Part shown: positions 3,401-62,332 of the stretch, piece after piece
Layout of the letters: every line of letters starts with the position of its first letter
Position numbering within the stretch: the first letter of the stretch is position 1
DNA from: Candidatus Lucifugimonas marina
GTDB lineage: Bacteria > Chloroflexota > Dehalococcoidia > Lucifugimonadales > Lucifugimonadaceae
Assembly (NCBI GenBank): GCA_029593915.1
Contig: CP046147.1
Span: forward strand, 2,589,001-2,653,000
Direction of reading: 5' to 3'
Length of the DNA: 64,000 nucleotides
Made by a program: the position numbers and the translations under genes
Notes under the pieces: model-generated
Told to the model about the DNA's origin: nothing
What the model saw: only the letters and a program-made list of their open reading frames with translations
Database searches by the model: none

Positions 3401-5064
3401 CCAAGCCGGGCGAAGGTGGTGAAATTCCGGGTCGCAAGATTTCGGATTACATCGCGTATATAAGGAAGACGACTCCCGGTGTGGAGTTGATTTCTCCTCC
3501 ACCTCACCACGACATCTACTCAATTGAAGACCTGGCTCAGCTGATCCACGACCTCAAGAACGTAAACCCCGATTCTCGTGTTCACGTGAAGTTGGTTTCT
3601 GTCGCTGGTGTCGGAATCATCGCTGCCGGCGTTGCCAAAGGTAAGGGCGATGTTGTTCTTATCTCAGGTGACTCGGGTGGTACCGGAGCATCGCCACTCA
3701 GTTCGATTCGACATGCGGGTCTGCCGTGGGAGCTTGGTCTTGCTGAAACTCAGCAGGTTCTTGTAGCCAACGGACTCCGAGACCGAATTACAGTTCAGAC
3801 CGACGGCCAGATGAAGACGTCTCTAGACGTTCTAGTCGGTGCGTTGCTTGGTGCTGAAGAATGGGGAATCGCAACTGGAGCGCTCATCTCGATGGGCTGC
3901 ATCATGCTGCGCAAATGCCACCTGAACACGTGTTCAGTCGGTGTCGCAACTCAGGACCCAGAGCTTCGCAAGAAGTTCACTGGAACTCCTGATGCGGTTG
4001 TGAACTACTTCATGTTCCTTGCTGAGGGACTCCGCGAACTCATGGCCAAATTGGGCTTCCGAACGGTCAACGAAATGATCGGTCGAGTCGACAAGCTGAA
4101 GGTTCGTGAAGACATCACTCACTGGAAAGCGAAGACTCTCGATCTTTCGCCAATTCTCATGAAGCCTGAAGTGCTTCCACAGGACCACACATACCAGCAG
4201 ATTCTGCAGGACCACGGTCTGGATAAAGCACTCGATAACGAACTAATCGAACTCGCACGTCCAGCTATCGACAACGGCGACAAGGTCGAGGCAACACTGC
4301 CAGTGACCAACGTGAACCGCACAGTCGGAGCCACTTTGAGTGGTGTCATCGCCAAGAAGACTGGTGAAGAAGGTCTTCCTGACGGTTCTATCAACTTCAC
4401 GTTCCAGGGTTCTGCAGGTCAGAGCTTCGGTGCGTGGGTAGTAAAGGGAATCACCTTCAAGGTTGAGGGTGACGCCAACGACTACTTCGGCAAGGGTCTT
4501 TCAGGTGGACGACTAGTAATCACTCCGCCTCAGAACAGCGCCTACGAAGCCAAAGACAACATCATCATCGGTAACGTTGCCCTTTACGGCTCTACAGGCG
4601 GTGAAGCATACGTAAACGGTCTTGCTGGTGAGCGATTCGCAGTTCGAAACTCTGCAGCCTCCGCGGTTGTTGAAGGCATCGGTGATCACGGTTGTGAATA
4701 CATGACTGGTGGTCGAGTAGCCATTCTCGGACCTGCAGGTCGAAACTTCGGCGCAGGCATGAGCGGTGGTGTCGCATACGTGATCGATGAAGACGGTTCA
4801 TTCGGTAGCCACTTCAACGATTCGATCGCTGATCTACTCGATGTCGAAGCTGGCTCAGCCGATGACGCAGAACTAAAAGAAATGATTGAAAAGCACGTTC
4901 AGTACACAGGCAGTAAGGTTGGATCCGAGCTACTTGCCGACTGGGCTAACTCGGTAACGAAATTCAAGAAAGTATTCCCTCGGGACTACGCACGAGTCCT
5001 TCGAGGACGTGCAGCCGCTTCTGAATCGACCGACTCTAAAGAAGGGGTAGGCAGCCGTGGGTAA
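409..5064 (+). CDS. gltB: glutamate synthase (NADPH) large subunit
   Basis: The 1551-residue length fits the GltB alpha subunit, which makes glutamate from glutamine and 2-oxoglutarate. Cys47 in the ACGVGM motif is the expected catalytic N-terminal cysteine of the class II amidotransferase domain, which implies removal of a 46-residue propeptide. The FMN-binding synthase domain holds the SGDSGGTGASP stretch. The 3Fe-4S ligands are seen at Cys1164, Cys1170 and Cys1175 (C-x5-C-x4-C). The C-terminal glycine-rich repeats (GGEAYVNGLAGERF and similar) form the GltB beta-helix domain. A TAGGAGA Shine-Dalgarno lies just before the ATG. The stop overlaps the gltD start by 8 bases, which suggests translational coupling of the two subunits. 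Confidence 0.97.
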   Translation: MTEVRNTFESHLNDSQSDGSNTGFAVPDFSDVAERGLYVPELERDACGVGMVANITGERSHEIVNQALEVLVNLDHRGAAGADPLTGDGAGITIQMPDAFMRKVAGEAGIELPAERRYGVAMSFLPVDDKLNAAARAALEASATENGLTVLGWRDVPVDPNSAGVTASAIMPKFAQMFVAAPDGVEEDAFERVMYLARKSTEKNFVNGESDPTTKETLLREFYVCSFSARTLIYKGMLLTHQLGEFYLDLKDESMVSAFGLVHSRFSTNTLGSWKLAHPYRMLAHNGEINTVRGNRNWMQARERSIDSPFFGDKIDQLTPICEADDASDTASLDNVFELLRMTGRSVEHTAAMMMPAAWNGHESMPQNVKDFYEYHGNLMEPWDGPAMIVFTDGDAVGAVLDRNGLRPFRYWVTKDNLLVMASEAGVLNIDPDRIKYRSRLEPGRMFLIDFEEQRIVEPDEVIDRIASENPYGEWLEENRATIDSLPDAPNVPEADIDTLVDRQMAFGYSREDLHMLVRPMAITGHQPQGSMGNDAPLAVLSDKPQNMFAYFKQAFAQVSNPPLDAIREKLITQRAVPAGRRPNIFETTSVHCQTLRIDHPILRNGELAKIKASTVPGVNAKTISTLFPTAGGAEALNAALDRIRSEASQAIEDGYTLLILSDRGIDSENAFVPSLLATSAVHHHLIRERNRAQADIIVESGEPREVHHFATLFGYGASAINPYLALETIAGLRLRPTAEEKIPSQDTAEENFREAIEEGVVKTMAKMGISTLQGYIGAQVFEALGLSQELVDEYFTWTVSRISGIGINEIALDILANHSRAYADDNIPSNLKLDMGGLYLWRATGERHMWNPDTIALLQDAVRRNDGDVFKQFESASNKEGDEHITIRNMLEPIYGDEISIDEVEPAEKIVERFATGAISLGSISREAHETLAVATNRINARSNTGEGGEDPERFTPEANGDSRSSAIKQIASGRFGVTTNYLSNAKDLQIKMAQGAKPGEGGEIPGRKISDYIAYIRKTTPGVELISPPPHHDIYSIEDLAQLIHDLKNVNPDSRVHVKLVSVAGVGIIAAGVAKGKGDVVLISGDSGGTGASPLSSIRHAGLPWELGLAETQQVLVANGLRDRITVQTDGQMKTSLDVLVGALLGAEEWGIATGALISMGCIMLRKCHLNTCSVGVATQDPELRKKFTGTPDAVVNYFMFLAEGLRELMAKLGFRTVNEMIGRVDKLKVREDITHWKAKTLDLSPILMKPEVLPQDHTYQQILQDHGLDKALDNELIELARPAIDNGDKVEATLPVTNVNRTVGATLSGVIAKKTGEEGLPDGSINFTFQGSAGQSFGAWVVKGITFKVEGDANDYFGKGLSGGRLVITPPQNSAYEAKDNIIIGNVALYGSTGGEAYVNGLAGERFAVRNSAASAVVEGIGDHGCEYMTGGRVAILGPAGRNFGAGMSGGVAYVIDEDGSFGSHFNDSIADLLDVEAGSADDAELKEMIEKHVQYTGSKVGSELLADWANSVTKFKKVFPRDYARVLRGRAAASESTDSKEGVGSRG

Positions 5065-11226: not shown

Positions 11227-11305
11227 CTCTTTTCGCTACAGTTCCACACACTTTTATGGGAGAACGATAACGTTGTTCCATCAGGTGACACATGGCTGTT
11301 GCAGC

Positions 11306-11325
11306 ATTAGAACAGATGTGCTAAT
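11306..11325. promoter_or_regulatory. LexA-type SOS operator of recA
   Basis: ATTAGAACAGATGTGCTAAT is a near-perfect 20-base palindrome, 67 bases before the recA start used here. Its core is GAAC-N4-GTGC, one base from the GAAC-N4-GTTC LexA box known from Gram-positive bacteria. Its reverse complement differs from the site at 62195-62214 by one base, and it resembles the sites at 50771-50809. Position in front of recA is the main reason to call it a LexA site. Confidence 0.75.
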
Positions 11326-11391
11326 CTGCCTTTCATTGCGGACGATTTGAGCCGCATAACCGGGCCTAGTAGCGCAGAAAGAAGAGCGACG

Positions 11392-12474
11392 TTGGCTGTT
11401 AAGAAAGCATCGAAAACGGTCTCAGTTAACGGAAGTGCGGCCGACCGAGAAAAGACTCTCGAGTTGGCTCTGGCACAGATTGAAAAGTCGTTCGGCCGTG
11501 GCGCAGTAATGCGCATGGGTGAAGCTGGCAACAATCAAGGTGTCAAAGCTGTTCCAACAGGTTCTATTGCTCTAGACCTGGCTCTAGGTGTAGGTGGACT
11601 ACCTCGTGGTCGCATCATCGAGATCTTTGGTGCTGAGTCGGCTGGTAAGACAACACTCGCCATGGCGGCTGTTGCTGAAGCACAGGCAGCCGGTGGTCAG
11701 GCAGCGTTCATTGACGTTGAGCACGCTATGGATCCTGCCTACGCACGTTTGATCGGTGTCGATGTCGACAAGCTTCTCATTTCGCAGCCAGACTCTGCTG
11801 AGCAAGCTCTCGAAATTACCGAGTACCTCATCCGCAGTGGTGCACTCGACATCATTGTTATCGACAGTGTTGCAGCGCTGGTTCCTTCCGCTGAATTGGA
11901 AGGAGATATGGGTGACATGCAGATCGGCCTGCAGGCACGAATCATGTCTCAGGCACTTCGCAAGCTCACAGGAATCATTCACAAGACCGATACCGTTTGT
12001 ATCTTCATCAACCAGCTTCGAGAAAAAGTTGGTGTGGTATTCGGCAGTCCTGAAGTAACTCCTGGTGGACGAGCACTGAAGTTCTACAGCTCAGTTCGTA
12101 TCGACTTACGCCGGGTTGAAGCTGTGAAGGTCGGACAAGACATCATCGGTAACCGTGTTCGCGCCAGAGTTGTGAAGAACAAGGTTGCTCCTCCATTCCG
12201 AAAAGCCGAAATGGAGATTCTCTTCGATTCGGGTATTAGCAAAGAGGGCAGCTTGCTAGATCTCGGTGTAGATATAGGAATCGTGAAAAAGAGCGGTTCG
12301 TTCTACTCATATGGTGATACTCGCCTTGGTCAGGGTCGTGAGGCTTCTCGCAAGTTCTTGAAGGCAAACACTGACATTCGAGATGAGATCGAAGCAGCTA
12401 TTCGCCGGGGTGAAGATGACACTGCTCCACCTGATGAACAGGGCGAGACCGCCGATGCGCCAGCCCTGAACTAA
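11392..12474 (+). CDS. recA: recombinase RecA
   Basis: This RecA of about 360 residues forms filaments on single-stranded DNA, drives strand exchange and triggers LexA self-cleavage. Walker A is GAESAGKT near residues 80-87. The [38 protein letters not shown] and later segments are the conserved L1/L2 and core regions. The frame is open from a TTG at 11347, but the TTG at 11392 has an AAGAAGAG Shine-Dalgarno five bases upstream and gives a normal RecA N-terminus, so it is preferred. A LexA-type palindrome lies in the promoter region. The C-terminus is acidic, as usual. recX is not adjacent. Confidence 0.96.
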
Positions 12475-48157: not shown

Positions 48158-49453
48158 TTACCCGAATAAAGCCGCGCCAGCTATTGATACGAACGATGTA
48201 TCATCTTCGTCAGCCTGACACTGTTGATATCCGTTCCAAATACCCGTAGTGACGTCGGCTGCCCAGAGAGTCATGTAAATCGGAGCGAGACCACAGATCT
48301 TGTTCTGGTCGTCGATATTTTTTATCGACTCAAAAAAACTACGCCTGCTGCCTCTAGTGATCGATTCGAGTAATCGTTCGTCATCCGCCTGAACACGTTT
48401 ACGCCCCTCGGAATCTTTAGGCATCTTTTCCTCGTCGCCAAATGCCGGGCCGACGTGTGCTAAGTCTGCAGCAGCGATAAACAAGGTCTTTCGTTCTTTA
48501 GCAACTTCACGAAGAAGGTTTATCACGCGACTTATTTGCGGATGATCATCGATGTTCGGAGCTCCATCTTGCAACAGACTCCCGAACGAGCCACACAGAA
48601 TCGGCAGCATTTTTGCATTCGAACGTCCTATTGCCCTGTGAAGCCACACGCTGGCAAGTTCTATCGAATGCTCGTTAACGTGATTGAACTCATCGGCAAA
48701 CGGGTGATCGTCAACCGCACTGTCTGTAGCTAGAATCCGTGCAATGTCATCAACCAACTCAGTGTCAGTTTCCAGTTCACCGAGAGGAGTTTGGTAGTTC
48801 TGATTCGTAAGCGTTAGACGTGGTCCGTCGCCATTGTGGTCAGTTCCAAACACGACGAACAGTTCGACGTCCTGAAGTTCGTGGCGTACCTGTTCCCAAA
48901 TCATCCCGTACGAATCGCCACCGCGCTCGAAATCTATATGCGGTGAGATGACAGCTTTGAGTTCGACATCAAGATCAGCTGGCAGATCGTCGTCTGCTCG
49001 GGCATCCTCAACCATGTACGGAAAGGCGAATCCGTCGAGATACCCTCGAAGATCCTCTAACTCTGCCGGATACGCCAACCCTGCAAGTGCAGGTTTTCGA
49101 AACAGTGCTTCACGGTACTCGCTTAGCCTTTGTTCGATCTCCGCTTCGTACTTGCCGTTGGATAGCAGGTACATGTCGTCGAGCCTCGACATCAGATCAT
49201 CGAGAGTTTCAGGCGTAACTTCAGGCGCACCGTTTCTCAGTGCTTCTTGAACGATCTCGTTTAACGTGTTCGTTCCATCGGCTCCTTGGAGGTACAACCC
49301 AAGCGGAGCAGGAACCATCAGTGACTGATCACTGAGTTGGCGAAGGTCCTTTAACAAGAAGTAGTCGCTCCCCTCATGGGTGATGCGACTTACTTCGACA
49401 GGTCGTAACTGCGGGCGATCCGGAATGTTTGAGCCATTTGATTCTGATGTCAT
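48158..49453 (-). CDS. MEMO1-family (AmmeMemoRadiSam system B-like) protein
   Basis: Residues 170-431 match the MEMO1 fold: AVISPHIDFERGG, FVVFGTDHNGDGPRL, DEFNHVNEHSIELASVWLH, PILCGSFG, and the late FIAAADLAHVGPAFGD. These histidines and the cysteine correspond to the family's active-site-like cluster. MEMO1 proteins resemble extradiol dioxygenases, and their bacterial function is not settled. The first 150 residues are an extra domain that I do not recognise. The AmmeMemo AMMECR1 and radical SAM partners are not seen here. The gene is 58 bases downstream of the HTH gene and could be in the same transcript. Confidence 0.8.
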   Translation of the reverse strand: MTSESNGSNIPDRPQLRPVEVSRITHEGSDYFLLKDLRQLSDQSLMVPAPLGLYLQGADGTNTLNEIVQEALRNGAPEVTPETLDDLMSRLDDMYLLSNGKYEAEIEQRLSEYREALFRKPALAGLAYPAELEDLRGYLDGFAFPYMVEDARADDDLPADLDVELKAVISPHIDFERGGDSYGMIWEQVRHELQDVELFVVFGTDHNGDGPRLTLTNQNYQTPLGELETDTELVDDIARILATDSAVDDHPFADEFNHVNEHSIELASVWLHRAIGRSNAKMLPILCGSFGSLLQDGAPNIDDHPQISRVINLLREVAKERKTLFIAAADLAHVGPAFGDEEKMPKDSEGRKRVQADDERLLESITRGSRRSFFESIKNIDDQNKICGLAPIYMTLWAADVTTGIWNGYQQCQADEDDTSFVSIAGAALFG

Positions 49454-49511: not shown

Positions 49512-49955
49512 CTAGTTCACGCCAAACTGATTTGAGTTTCTGATCCCCAATTCAGGAAACGGAGTGCGCTCTCGGAACAGTGATCGCTCTGCCAACTCAC
49601 TAAGCGAGATCAACGGACCATCGTCCTCTTCAGCAGCAGTAACGGGAGCAGCACCACCACGTTGAACAATTCGGTGCACAGTGCGAGTACTGATACCAAA
49701 TCGCTTCGATATCTCAGCCACTGGTACTCGCTCTTCTCTTAACCGAAAGATTTCATCATCACGAGTCCTACGACTCTCGCGCTGCAACCAGCCGGGATCA
49801 TCGTACTTGCATAGTGATAGCGGACAATCAAGACAGCTCACCGAAGCTTCGCAACCATCGTCCTTGTACTGCGTGTTCTCTGGCAGCGTGTCGGATCGAA
49901 CAGGCGCGAGCGTTCCAAAAGATTCAGGGTTAGCGGGACCAATCGTCATCACCAT
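49512..49955 (-). CDS. small zinc-ribbon/HTH protein, second gene of SOS-like operon
   Basis: This 147-residue protein has four cysteines, C35, C41, C44, C49 (SCLDCPLSLCKYDDPGW), that suggest a zinc knuckle. Residues 67-98 form a helix-turn-helix (DEIFRLREERVPVAEISKRFGISTRTVHRIV) like that of resolvases or sigma region 4. A disordered tail follows. It is probably a DNA-binding regulator. It starts 43 bases after the gene at 49999-50736, so both probably share the promoter with two LexA-type operators. I do not know its target. Confidence 0.65.
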   Translation of the reverse strand: MVMTIGPANPESFGTLAPVRSDTLPENTQYKDDGCEASVSCLDCPLSLCKYDDPGWLQRESRRTRDDEIFRLREERVPVAEISKRFGISTRTVHRIVQRGGAAPVTAAEEDDGPLISLSELAERSLFRERTPFPELGIRNSNQFGVN

Positions 49956-49998: not shown

Positions 49999-50736
49999 TT
50001 AGACAGCCGCCGTAGCGGACCAGTTCAATTGACGTGAAAAGTGGATTCCGCCAGGTCGACCCGACAGATTCTTAGTGCGTTCTCGTTTGAAGATTGAATT
50101 TGCGTACTCAGAACCGGGAGCGTTCGGCACACCGAACATCACAGTCGTCAGTCCAGCGGATGAAGCACGTGGACTCACACGTTGGTCATACCACTCGGAA
50201 CTAATTCGGTGCGCAGCAACAATCTCTATAAGTGTGTTCGGCGAAGGACTGCGATCTGCAACCGGCATATCGACGCTCACAAACAGGTGCTTAGCGTTGC
50301 CCATTCGAATAGAACGAGGCCCGTCTGGCTTCCATCCATCGCTGGCGCCAGAACTCTCAAAGCCCTTCACAAGAGCAAGCATCGCGGGGTAGGTATCGTC
50401 TTTAAAAGAAGGAGAAACCGTGGCTGAGATCGAACCACCTGAGCTATCAGCACGATTCATTACCAACAAAAGCATTCGTAGCCGAGTAGAGAACTCTTGA
50501 GCGCTCTCACCCGGAGCAAGATCTACCGTGATGAGATTTGCATCACCATGACTGGCTCGGTTAGTAACGCTTTGAACAATATGCGTCCACGCTGTATTGA
50601 ATCCGTCAGCCGTTGATACAGACTTCTTCGCCACTCCAGATGCAATCGACACAGGTGAAAGCACGCCAACGCCTTTAGCCCCTTCAATACTCTGAGGGCT
50701 ACTCGGTGTGACAATCGGGGTAGCAGTCGGACTCAT
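49999..50736 (-). CDS. unrecognised protein, first gene of SOS-like operon
   Basis: I do not recognise this 245-residue protein. The ATG at 50736 is chosen because a GAAGAGG Shine-Dalgarno stands five bases before it. The longer frame to 50799 would place the start inside an operator. The N-terminal 40 residues are Ser/Thr/Pro/Val-rich and disordered-looking. The middle part is mixed alpha/beta (ANLITVDLAPGESAQEFSTRLRMLLLVMNRA, LFVSVDMPVADRSPSPNTLIEIVAAHRI). The C-terminus has GIHFSRQLNWSATAAV. No nuclease, polymerase or helicase motif is seen. The tandem upstream operators suggest damage-inducible expression. Confidence 0.65.
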   Translation of the reverse strand: MSPTATPIVTPSSPQSIEGAKGVGVLSPVSIASGVAKKSVSTADGFNTAWTHIVQSVTNRASHGDANLITVDLAPGESAQEFSTRLRMLLLVMNRADSSGGSISATVSPSFKDDTYPAMLALVKGFESSGASDGWKPDGPRSIRMGNAKHLFVSVDMPVADRSPSPNTLIEIVAAHRISSEWYDQRVSPRASSAGLTTVMFGVPNAPGSEYANSIFKRERTKNLSGRPGGIHFSRQLNWSATAAV

Positions 50737-50770: not shown

Positions 50771-50809
50771 TTTAGAACGACTGTTCTAGTATCGAACATA
50801 TGTTCTAAT
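50771..50809. promoter_or_regulatory. two tandem LexA-type operators
   Basis: TTTAGAACGACTGTTCTAGT (50771-50790) has core GAAC-GACT-GTTC. TATCGAACATATGTTCTAAT (50790-50809) has core GAAC-ATAT-GTTC. The second shares CATATGTTCTAAT with the site at 62195. Both match the GAAC-N4-GTTC LexA class, and resemble the recA site. They lie 35 to 73 bases before the first gene of the minus-strand operon, in the promoter position. Confidence 0.75.
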
Positions 50810-50842
50810 TAAGTCAAGCGCGTTTGGCGTTAGTCGCTGTGA

Positions 50843-51050
50843 CGTTAGTCGCGCTCGTCGTCCGACGACTCGGCTCCGCGTCGCAATCTCCCACCCTCTA
50901 ACTCCCTCCCACTCTGGGAGGGAGGACAAAGACAAGCAGTGCGATCTAGCGTTAGTCGCGCTCGTCGTCCGACGACTCGGCTCAGCAGCACTGTCTGCGA
51001 CATGGCCTCTAACTCCCTCCCACTCTGGGAGTGAGGACAGATACAAGCAG
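50843..51050. repeat. tandem ~100-bp direct repeat with inner palindromes
   Basis: Two units (50843-50939 and 50950-51050) share CGTTAGTCGCGCTCGTCG, CGACGACTCGGCTC and the 3' part ending ACAAGCAG. Each holds a palindrome CTCCCTCCCA-CTC-TGGGAGGGAG (50902-50924 and 51013-51035). A partial third copy of the first 10 bases is at 50828. No gene lies in 50810-51139. The minus-strand ORF through it is repeat-made. Confidence 0.6.
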
Positions 51051-62194: not shown

Positions 62195-62214
62195 ATTAGC
62201 ACATATGTTCTAAT
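62195..62214. promoter_or_regulatory. third LexA-type operator
   Basis: ATTAGCACATATGTTCTAAT is within one base of the reverse complement of the recA operator, and shares CATATGTTCTAAT with the site at 50790. It lies 119 bases before the sulfatase start and 182 bases from the copy B start, between divergent genes. Which gene it serves is not clear. Confidence 0.65.
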
Positions 62215-62332
62215 TAATAAGTTATATGCCAGCCTTAAATCGGTCAATCCTCGGTGTCACACCCTAAATATTCATAAACCCACAGTTTGCTCGTTATACT
62301 CAAGCCCTCGTACACAACCCCTGGAGCAATTC

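Follow-up and report, generated by a model that had tools for sequence, protein, structure and literature searches.

A predicted LexA regulon in a SAR202-type lineage, with candidate targets in DNA repair, cell division and phage-derived packaging genes

The palindromes that recur upstream of recA and at several other loci of this genome are very probably LexA operators, the organism having a single LexA repressor. The regulon predicted from them comprises recA; lexA; imuB with a small downstream open reading frame (ORF); an operon beside cinA that encodes an uncharacterised protein (hereafter unk245) and a helix-turn-helix (HTH) protein; an operon for a zinc-ribbon protein, a terminase and a portal protein; a divergent FtsZ; and, in some relatives, an MmcB-like gene. 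According to consensus scoring, the boxes overlap or adjoin a sigma70-like promoter at recA, lexA, unk245, the terminase and imuB. In undamaged cells, LexA would occupy boxes overlapping or adjoining the -35/-10 elements, and damage-activated RecA would then bring about LexA self-cleavage, by which the regulon would be opened. From sequence, we infer that LexA binds these sites, that damage induces the regulon and what its targets do. A comparative SOS regulon is hereby set out for a SAR202-type lineage, for which none was found in the open-licence literature. RegPrecise 3.0 includes a collection of five Chloroflexi genomes and covers LexA in over 25 groups (PMC3840689); the number of LexA motifs is put at 17 in a paper from 2021 (PMC8565304).

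Probable operators at recA, lexA and imuB

The window, i.e., the whole stretch of 64,000 nucleotides that was analysed, corresponds to positions 2589001-2653000 of a single-contig genome of 3.09 Mb. Among named RecA sequences, the nearest come from MAGs with the labels Chloroflexi, Dehalococcoidia and SAR202 (top RecA match 95% identical). Within the window, recA (11347..12474, plus strand; Pfam RecA, E 1.6e-128) is preceded by the box ATTAGAACAGATGTGCTAAT (11306..11325, plus strand), located 22 bp before the annotated TTG and recognised by both consensus and matrix. A candidate promoter, found by consensus scoring only (GTGACA, 17-bp spacer, TAGAAC; 11285..11313, plus strand), has its -10 element within this box. 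When the best upstream site with at most five mismatches was considered, the box was conserved in 28 of the 43 recA loci scored (out of 80). Most of the conserved recA boxes share the form GAAC-N4-GTGC, so that the asymmetric half-site is itself conserved. A symmetric matrix was trained on 17 distinct recA operators, including the window's own recA site and leaving out the other three window sites. Beyond the recA region, sites of 14 bits were found in none of the 31 long recA loci.

A single S24 gene is present in this genome (S24 domain, E 7.7e-21), and it scores above the equivalog cut-off for lexA (157.1 vs 110.95 bits). Its promoter, TTGACA-N16-GATAAT, carries the variant box TTCAGAACATTAGTGCGAAT directly after the -10 element; this box is weak, with 12.4 bits and mismatches at 6 of 20 positions. 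The core of the lexA-type box was nevertheless found in 25 of the 33 lexA loci examined, and the form GAACATT[A/C]GT[G/A]C in all 24 lexA loci scanned, which were hand-picked, as well as in L155. It was not found in the remaining eight of the 33, namely three lexA-type loci of the small-genome genera g5 and g7 (L143, L145, L153) and five of genus g11 (L316-L320). In these g11 loci, the LexA HTH is different (PNLREIA in place of PPxxRDIQ) and the promoters have ACA-N2-TGT where others have the GAAC box, which may reflect a natural shift in what LexA recognises. The consensus box is missing from all seven g11 genomes in the family scan, which fits such a change. However, one g11 unk245 promoter still contains GAAC-N4-GTTC, by eye, so that the g11 comparison is not a clean test of changed recognition, and the ACA-N2-TGT form, sought at seven g11 unk245 and terminase loci, was found at none. 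Two other arrangements near S24 genes were observed in relatives. Tandem boxes 18 bp apart occur in genus g7 (G036:C67:6106-6143, with similar ones in G006, G017, G027, G042, G054 and G060), those in G036 being situated some 0.9 kb beyond the S24 match of lexA. In the small-genome relative G017, a 16.8-bit box (L139:1433-1452) immediately precedes a short, UmuD-like S24 gene.

The imuB-like gene carries the box TTTAGAACAGATGTTCTATT at genome position 2097097, ending 204 bp upstream of a 466-aa Y-family protein (Pfam IMS, E 5.8e-10), and the same arrangement of box and imuB was found in G067, G012 and G061. As in the imuB/dnaE2 mutasome, a Y-family protein thus lies behind a LexA box, with a DnaE-type polymerase as the next gene in G061; the present genome differs in that just a 128-aa ORF, which may be a dnaE2 remnant, follows imuB. 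This ORF (L176:7714-8100) matches a portion of the DnaE-type ORF found behind imuB in G061.

GAAC-N4-GTTC is the LexA box class of Gram-positives, known from other bacteria. The present set resembles the SOS regulons of this class in its single LexA and in that boxes, placed on or adjoining promoters, mark lexA, recA and a gene for a translesion polymerase. It differs from them in that recA and lexA use GAAC-N4-GTGC, and in its extra targets, which are the divergent FtsZ, unk245 with its HTH gene, and phage packaging genes. The earlier note on this DNA, which had seen the recA palindrome and its copies as defining an SOS regulon, is supported by the variant box directly after the promoter of the single lexA gene, by the imuB box and by the conservation at recA; the predicted regulon takes in recA, lexA and imuB and would extend beyond repair to division and phage-derived genes. 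Another repressor sharing the site might own the boxes, LexA controlling only a subset of them. The weak and differently shaped box of lexA itself would be in line with this, as would the high scores of the phage-linked boxes, which are among the strongest (31.4 bits at 62195), as expected for a phage-type repressor. However, the search, which covered S24-domain repressors, returned one such gene in the genome, and the motif is common to recA, imuB and lexA. We consider ownership by another repressor improbable, and the boxes are discussed below as LexA operators.

The motif in the window and in the genome

All four sites that the earlier note had reported, at 11306, at 50790 with a tandem partner at 50771, and at 62195, were located in the window. 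The consensus ATTAGAACATATGTTCTAAT, with at most three mismatches, has exactly three matches there, at 11306 (2 mismatches), 50790 (3) and 62195 (1), and none in 100 shuffles of the window. The tandem partner at 50771 has five mismatches, and a recount gave 15-19 of 20 bases kept, where 12-19 had been claimed. With the recA-operator matrix, only these four window sites reached at least 10 bits (29.9, 22.9, 20.3 and, for the box at 62195, 31.4). Column-permuted matrices gave four window matches in 0 of 200 cases at 12 bits and in 2 of 200 at 10 bits, and 100 dinucleotide shuffles yielded nine matches in total at 14 bits, with a maximum of 18.0. In the whole genome, the consensus was found at five sites with at most three mismatches, and the reversed pattern at none; among 61 family genomes, 42 contain the consensus at least once and 4 a reversed match. 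The claim that such matches are unlikely by chance was upheld by the shuffles, the reversed pattern and the matrix permutations.

The core had been described as GAAC-N4-GTTC, which is right at the level of the box class and does not hold as a strict form, the recA box being GAAC-N4-GTGC and that at 62195 GCAC-N4-GTTC. The bare GAAC-N4-GTTC core was not enriched in the window (4 matches vs 1.93 expected; 8 of 100 shuffles reach 4), and its matches at 3924 and 40375, both inside long ORFs, were dismissed as sites. A degenerate core, TTAGMAC-N4-GTKCTAA, added a perfect site at genome position 1757853 and a weaker neighbour at 1757898. At one mismatch or less, it gave 8 sites vs 2 reversed in this genome, and just 79 vs 55 reversed when summed over the 19 genomes of the genus; at two mismatches or less, no enrichment was found in this genome (22 vs 64 reversed). 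In view of these counts, the weak site classes were treated as background, and weight was given to strong or conserved sites only. That the palindromes arose by chance, as the unenriched bare core might suggest, is a reading to which we give practically no credence, since full-length sites were absent from the shuffles and from the reversed search, and since the conservation of boxes at orthologous promoters already contradicts it.

Five of the seven boxed loci (recA, unk245, 62195, terminase and lexA) lie within about 118 kb of the 3.09-Mb chromosome, from 11306-62214 in the window and then on to genome position 2718752. A GC-rich intergenic element, gttagtcgcgctcgtcgtccgacgactcggct, occurs twice in the window (50825-51030), and inspection by eye showed elements of this type close to further boxed genes (L176, about 5785; L177, about 12085).

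The unk245 operon and the phage-derived genes

The gene for unk245, a 245-aa protein (49999..50736, minus strand), was found in 46 of 76 family genomes and is preceded by a tandem pair of boxes on the minus strand, 19 bp apart. The promoter-distal one (50790..50809), matched by consensus and matrix, occupies most of the -35/-10 spacer of a candidate promoter found by consensus scoring only (TTGACT, 18-bp spacer, GATACT; 50788..50817, minus strand), while the promoter-proximal one (50771..50790) was recognised by the matrix and in relatives. The second gene of the operon (49512..49955, minus strand) encodes the 147-aa HTH protein (Pfam HTH_23, E 1.2e-7) and adjoins unk245 in 12 loci (L304-L315); a Memo-like protein (48158..49453, minus strand; Pfam Memo) is possibly encoded by a third gene, given its adjacency in relatives. 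Among the 30 unk245 loci examined, out of 47 matches, sites of at least 10 bits numbered two or more in 25, one in 4 and none in 1, the boxless locus being one where the match begins at base 38 of its contig. At 14 bits, the corresponding numbers were 22, 4 and 4. The tandem spacing in the 25 two-box loci was 19 bp in 22, 20 bp in 2 and 18 bp in 1. One of the boxes has a recurring odd arm, GTTCGATA, which coincides with the candidate -10 element in TTGACT-N18-GATACT, and this overlap may explain it. No Pfam, PHROG or NCBIfam match was obtained for unk245; a PDB profile search with seven of its sequences gave a best E of 0.36, and an AlphaFold model from a single sequence (mean pLDDT 33.7) was not used. 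Tandem boxes accompany unk245 in several genera, and it makes a strong candidate for a family of SOS genes not yet described. Just upstream of a distant terminase locus (L278 of G011), a homologue of the 147-aa HTH protein (42% identity) was observed, which hints at an association of this HTH family with phage packaging genes.

The box at 62195 (62195..62214, minus strand) is an orphan in this genome. It is accompanied by a candidate leftward promoter (TTGACC, 17-bp spacer, TAACTT; 62219..62247, minus strand), which is the same in G068 and G071, and in these two relatives the homologous box heads minus-strand genes for a prohead protease and an HK97-type capsid protein. In G068, small ORFs come next in the module, along with genes for a tail-fibre-like protein, a head-tail adaptor and a tail terminator. 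The capsid gene was not found in the present genome and is present in 2 of the 19 genus genomes. We read 62195 as a promoter left behind after the loss of the capsid module; the first gene to its left is now a ketopantoate reductase gene, which might have inherited it. A sulfatase was rejected as the target, as the promoter elements face left and are common to G068 and G071, where capsid genes follow. In G067, a 105-aa ORF that remains beside the box looks, to the eye, like the final ORF of the module in G068.

The box at genome position 2661806 stands directly after a candidate promoter (TTGACT-N17-TAGCTT) and precedes genes for a 64-aa zinc-ribbon protein, a large terminase and a portal protein. 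A terminase match was obtained in 8 of 19 genus genomes, with a box at the best locus in 7; the eighth locus, in G022, is degraded and boxless. The order box, zinc ribbon, terminase and portal is common to genera g1, g4 (G003, G024) and g10 (G019, G055, G037), while in G014, of genus g4, the three genes are present and the box was not found. Of the 30 terminase loci examined overall, 16 have a 14-bit box and 14 have none, the nine g11 loci contributing one boxed case.

By sequence, these phage-derived operons lie under LexA boxes, and they may represent the remains of a head-and-packaging module that would be transcribed from LexA-controlled promoters. They could instead be decaying prophage pieces whose late promoters were LexA-controlled and which have no function for the host, to which we give close to an even chance. 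The loss of the capsid gene here is consistent with such decay, as are the terminase and portal copies that are split or contain stops and the degraded locus of G022. The dN/dS values, by contrast, are low, at 0.063 for the terminase (vs G068 and G040) and 0.037 for the portal gene (vs G068), i.e., about 0.04-0.06 and like those of the neighbouring exchanger (0.036-0.072), the G046 terminase and portal pairs being saturated. The operon order kept across three genera also argues against mere decay. The same neighbours were seen in several genus members, but some copies decay.

A retained module would bear some likeness to the gene transfer agents (GTAs) of Caulobacter and Rhodobacter as presented in an excerpt of one paper (PMC9632790), in that several relatives have the head and packaging genes at one chromosomal location, apparently under purifying selection. 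It differs from them in its LexA-box control, in its two separate modules and in its incomplete structural set, and it is known from its genes alone. Judged by the genes beside the box and by a search for the capsid gene, the head and tail set of a GTA is incomplete in this genome, where terminase and portal genes stand beside a box and a capsid gene was not detected. The same excerpt states that Caulobacter GTAs help DNA repair and names damage as a candidate trigger (PMC9632790). With LexA boxes on packaging genes, the damage-triggered production of GTA-like particles, for which this trigger was proposed in Caulobacter, would become directly testable.

A divergent FtsZ-like gene behind probable LexA boxes

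Three tubulin-family genes are present in this genome, one of which sits behind the boxes at 1757853 and 1757898. Its product has a tubulin/FtsZ GTPase domain (PF00091, E 5.7e-22) and scores below the FtsZ equivalog cut-off (141.8 vs 295.2 bits), whereas the other two score 410.4 and 413.9; it is 25-27% identical to these two canonical FtsZ proteins. The gene was sought in 8 of the 19 genus genomes and found in all eight (43-100% identity). In seven, a box of 20.7-27.5 bits lies 81-154 bp upstream of the match, and the eighth locus begins at base 45 of its contig. The candidate promoter scored poorly by the consensus. Among the 30 FtsZ loci examined overall, the 22 others, from other genera, had no site of at least 8 bits in the same region. 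The T7 motif NLDFAD is missing from all eight FtsZ-like orthologues and present in 20 of these 22 other loci, and the T4 pattern G-x-GTG-[ST]-G was found in five of the eight. In an alignment of five FtsZ-like sequences with this genome's pair of canonical FtsZ proteins, a gap falls at the T7 region, and several residues are invariant (e.g., E137, R141, N164 and D185), which we take to be GTP-site residues. In G040, G032, G052 and G058, the other side of these boxes is occupied by an MmcB-like gene, whose Pfam match is weak (above cut-off in two of four tested); in the present genome, two ORFs separate the boxes from the MmcB-like gene.

In our preferred reading, this protein would be an SOS-induced division inhibitor. 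From a mechanistic point of view, a protein that keeps several GTP-site residues and has lost the T7 loop could cap FtsZ filaments and leave the GTPase site incomplete. A role as a damage-induced division inhibitor is plausible on the basis of the sequence. It may alternatively be some other filament protein, involved for instance in DNA positioning or in a phage-derived role, an option that we place somewhat short of an even chance. Sequence alone cannot tell these apart, and an identity of 25-27% to the canonical proteins leaves room for such a role. The presence of LexA boxes in seven of eight loci, the loss of the T7 motif in all eight, the many invariant GTP-site residues and the MmcB-like DNA-repair neighbour in four relatives nevertheless argue for division inhibition.

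A review names, in the part consulted, SulA, SidA, YneA and SosA as SOS division inhibitors (PMC9578287). The FtsZ-like protein resembles these in being predicted as LexA-controlled and acting on division; it differs in being itself FtsZ-like, while those four are not FtsZ paralogues. The review also describes MmcB as an SOS-regulated nuclease in Caulobacter (PMC9578287), in line with the position of the MmcB-like gene across LexA boxes in the four relatives. No SOS precedent for the FtsZ-like, unk245/HTH or terminase targets was found in the open-licence literature, and a survey by title and abstract returned none for an FtsZ paralogue or a GTA combined with LexA. We tentatively propose an SOS checkpoint in which a LexA-controlled, catalytically dead FtsZ paralogue would poison the ring from inside, the same repressor driving domesticated phage packaging genes and linking damage to packaging; as a whole, this remains a speculative model that we hold to be rather doubtful. 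If true, an FtsZ paralogue as SOS effector would constitute a new way to stop division, by means of a defective, damage-controlled form of the divisome's own filament former.

In one relative, G070, a near-perfect box of 26.9 bits (L234:3338-3357) was also observed before the gene for a 212-aa MerR/DUF433-type protein, and this gene may be an additional target in that species.
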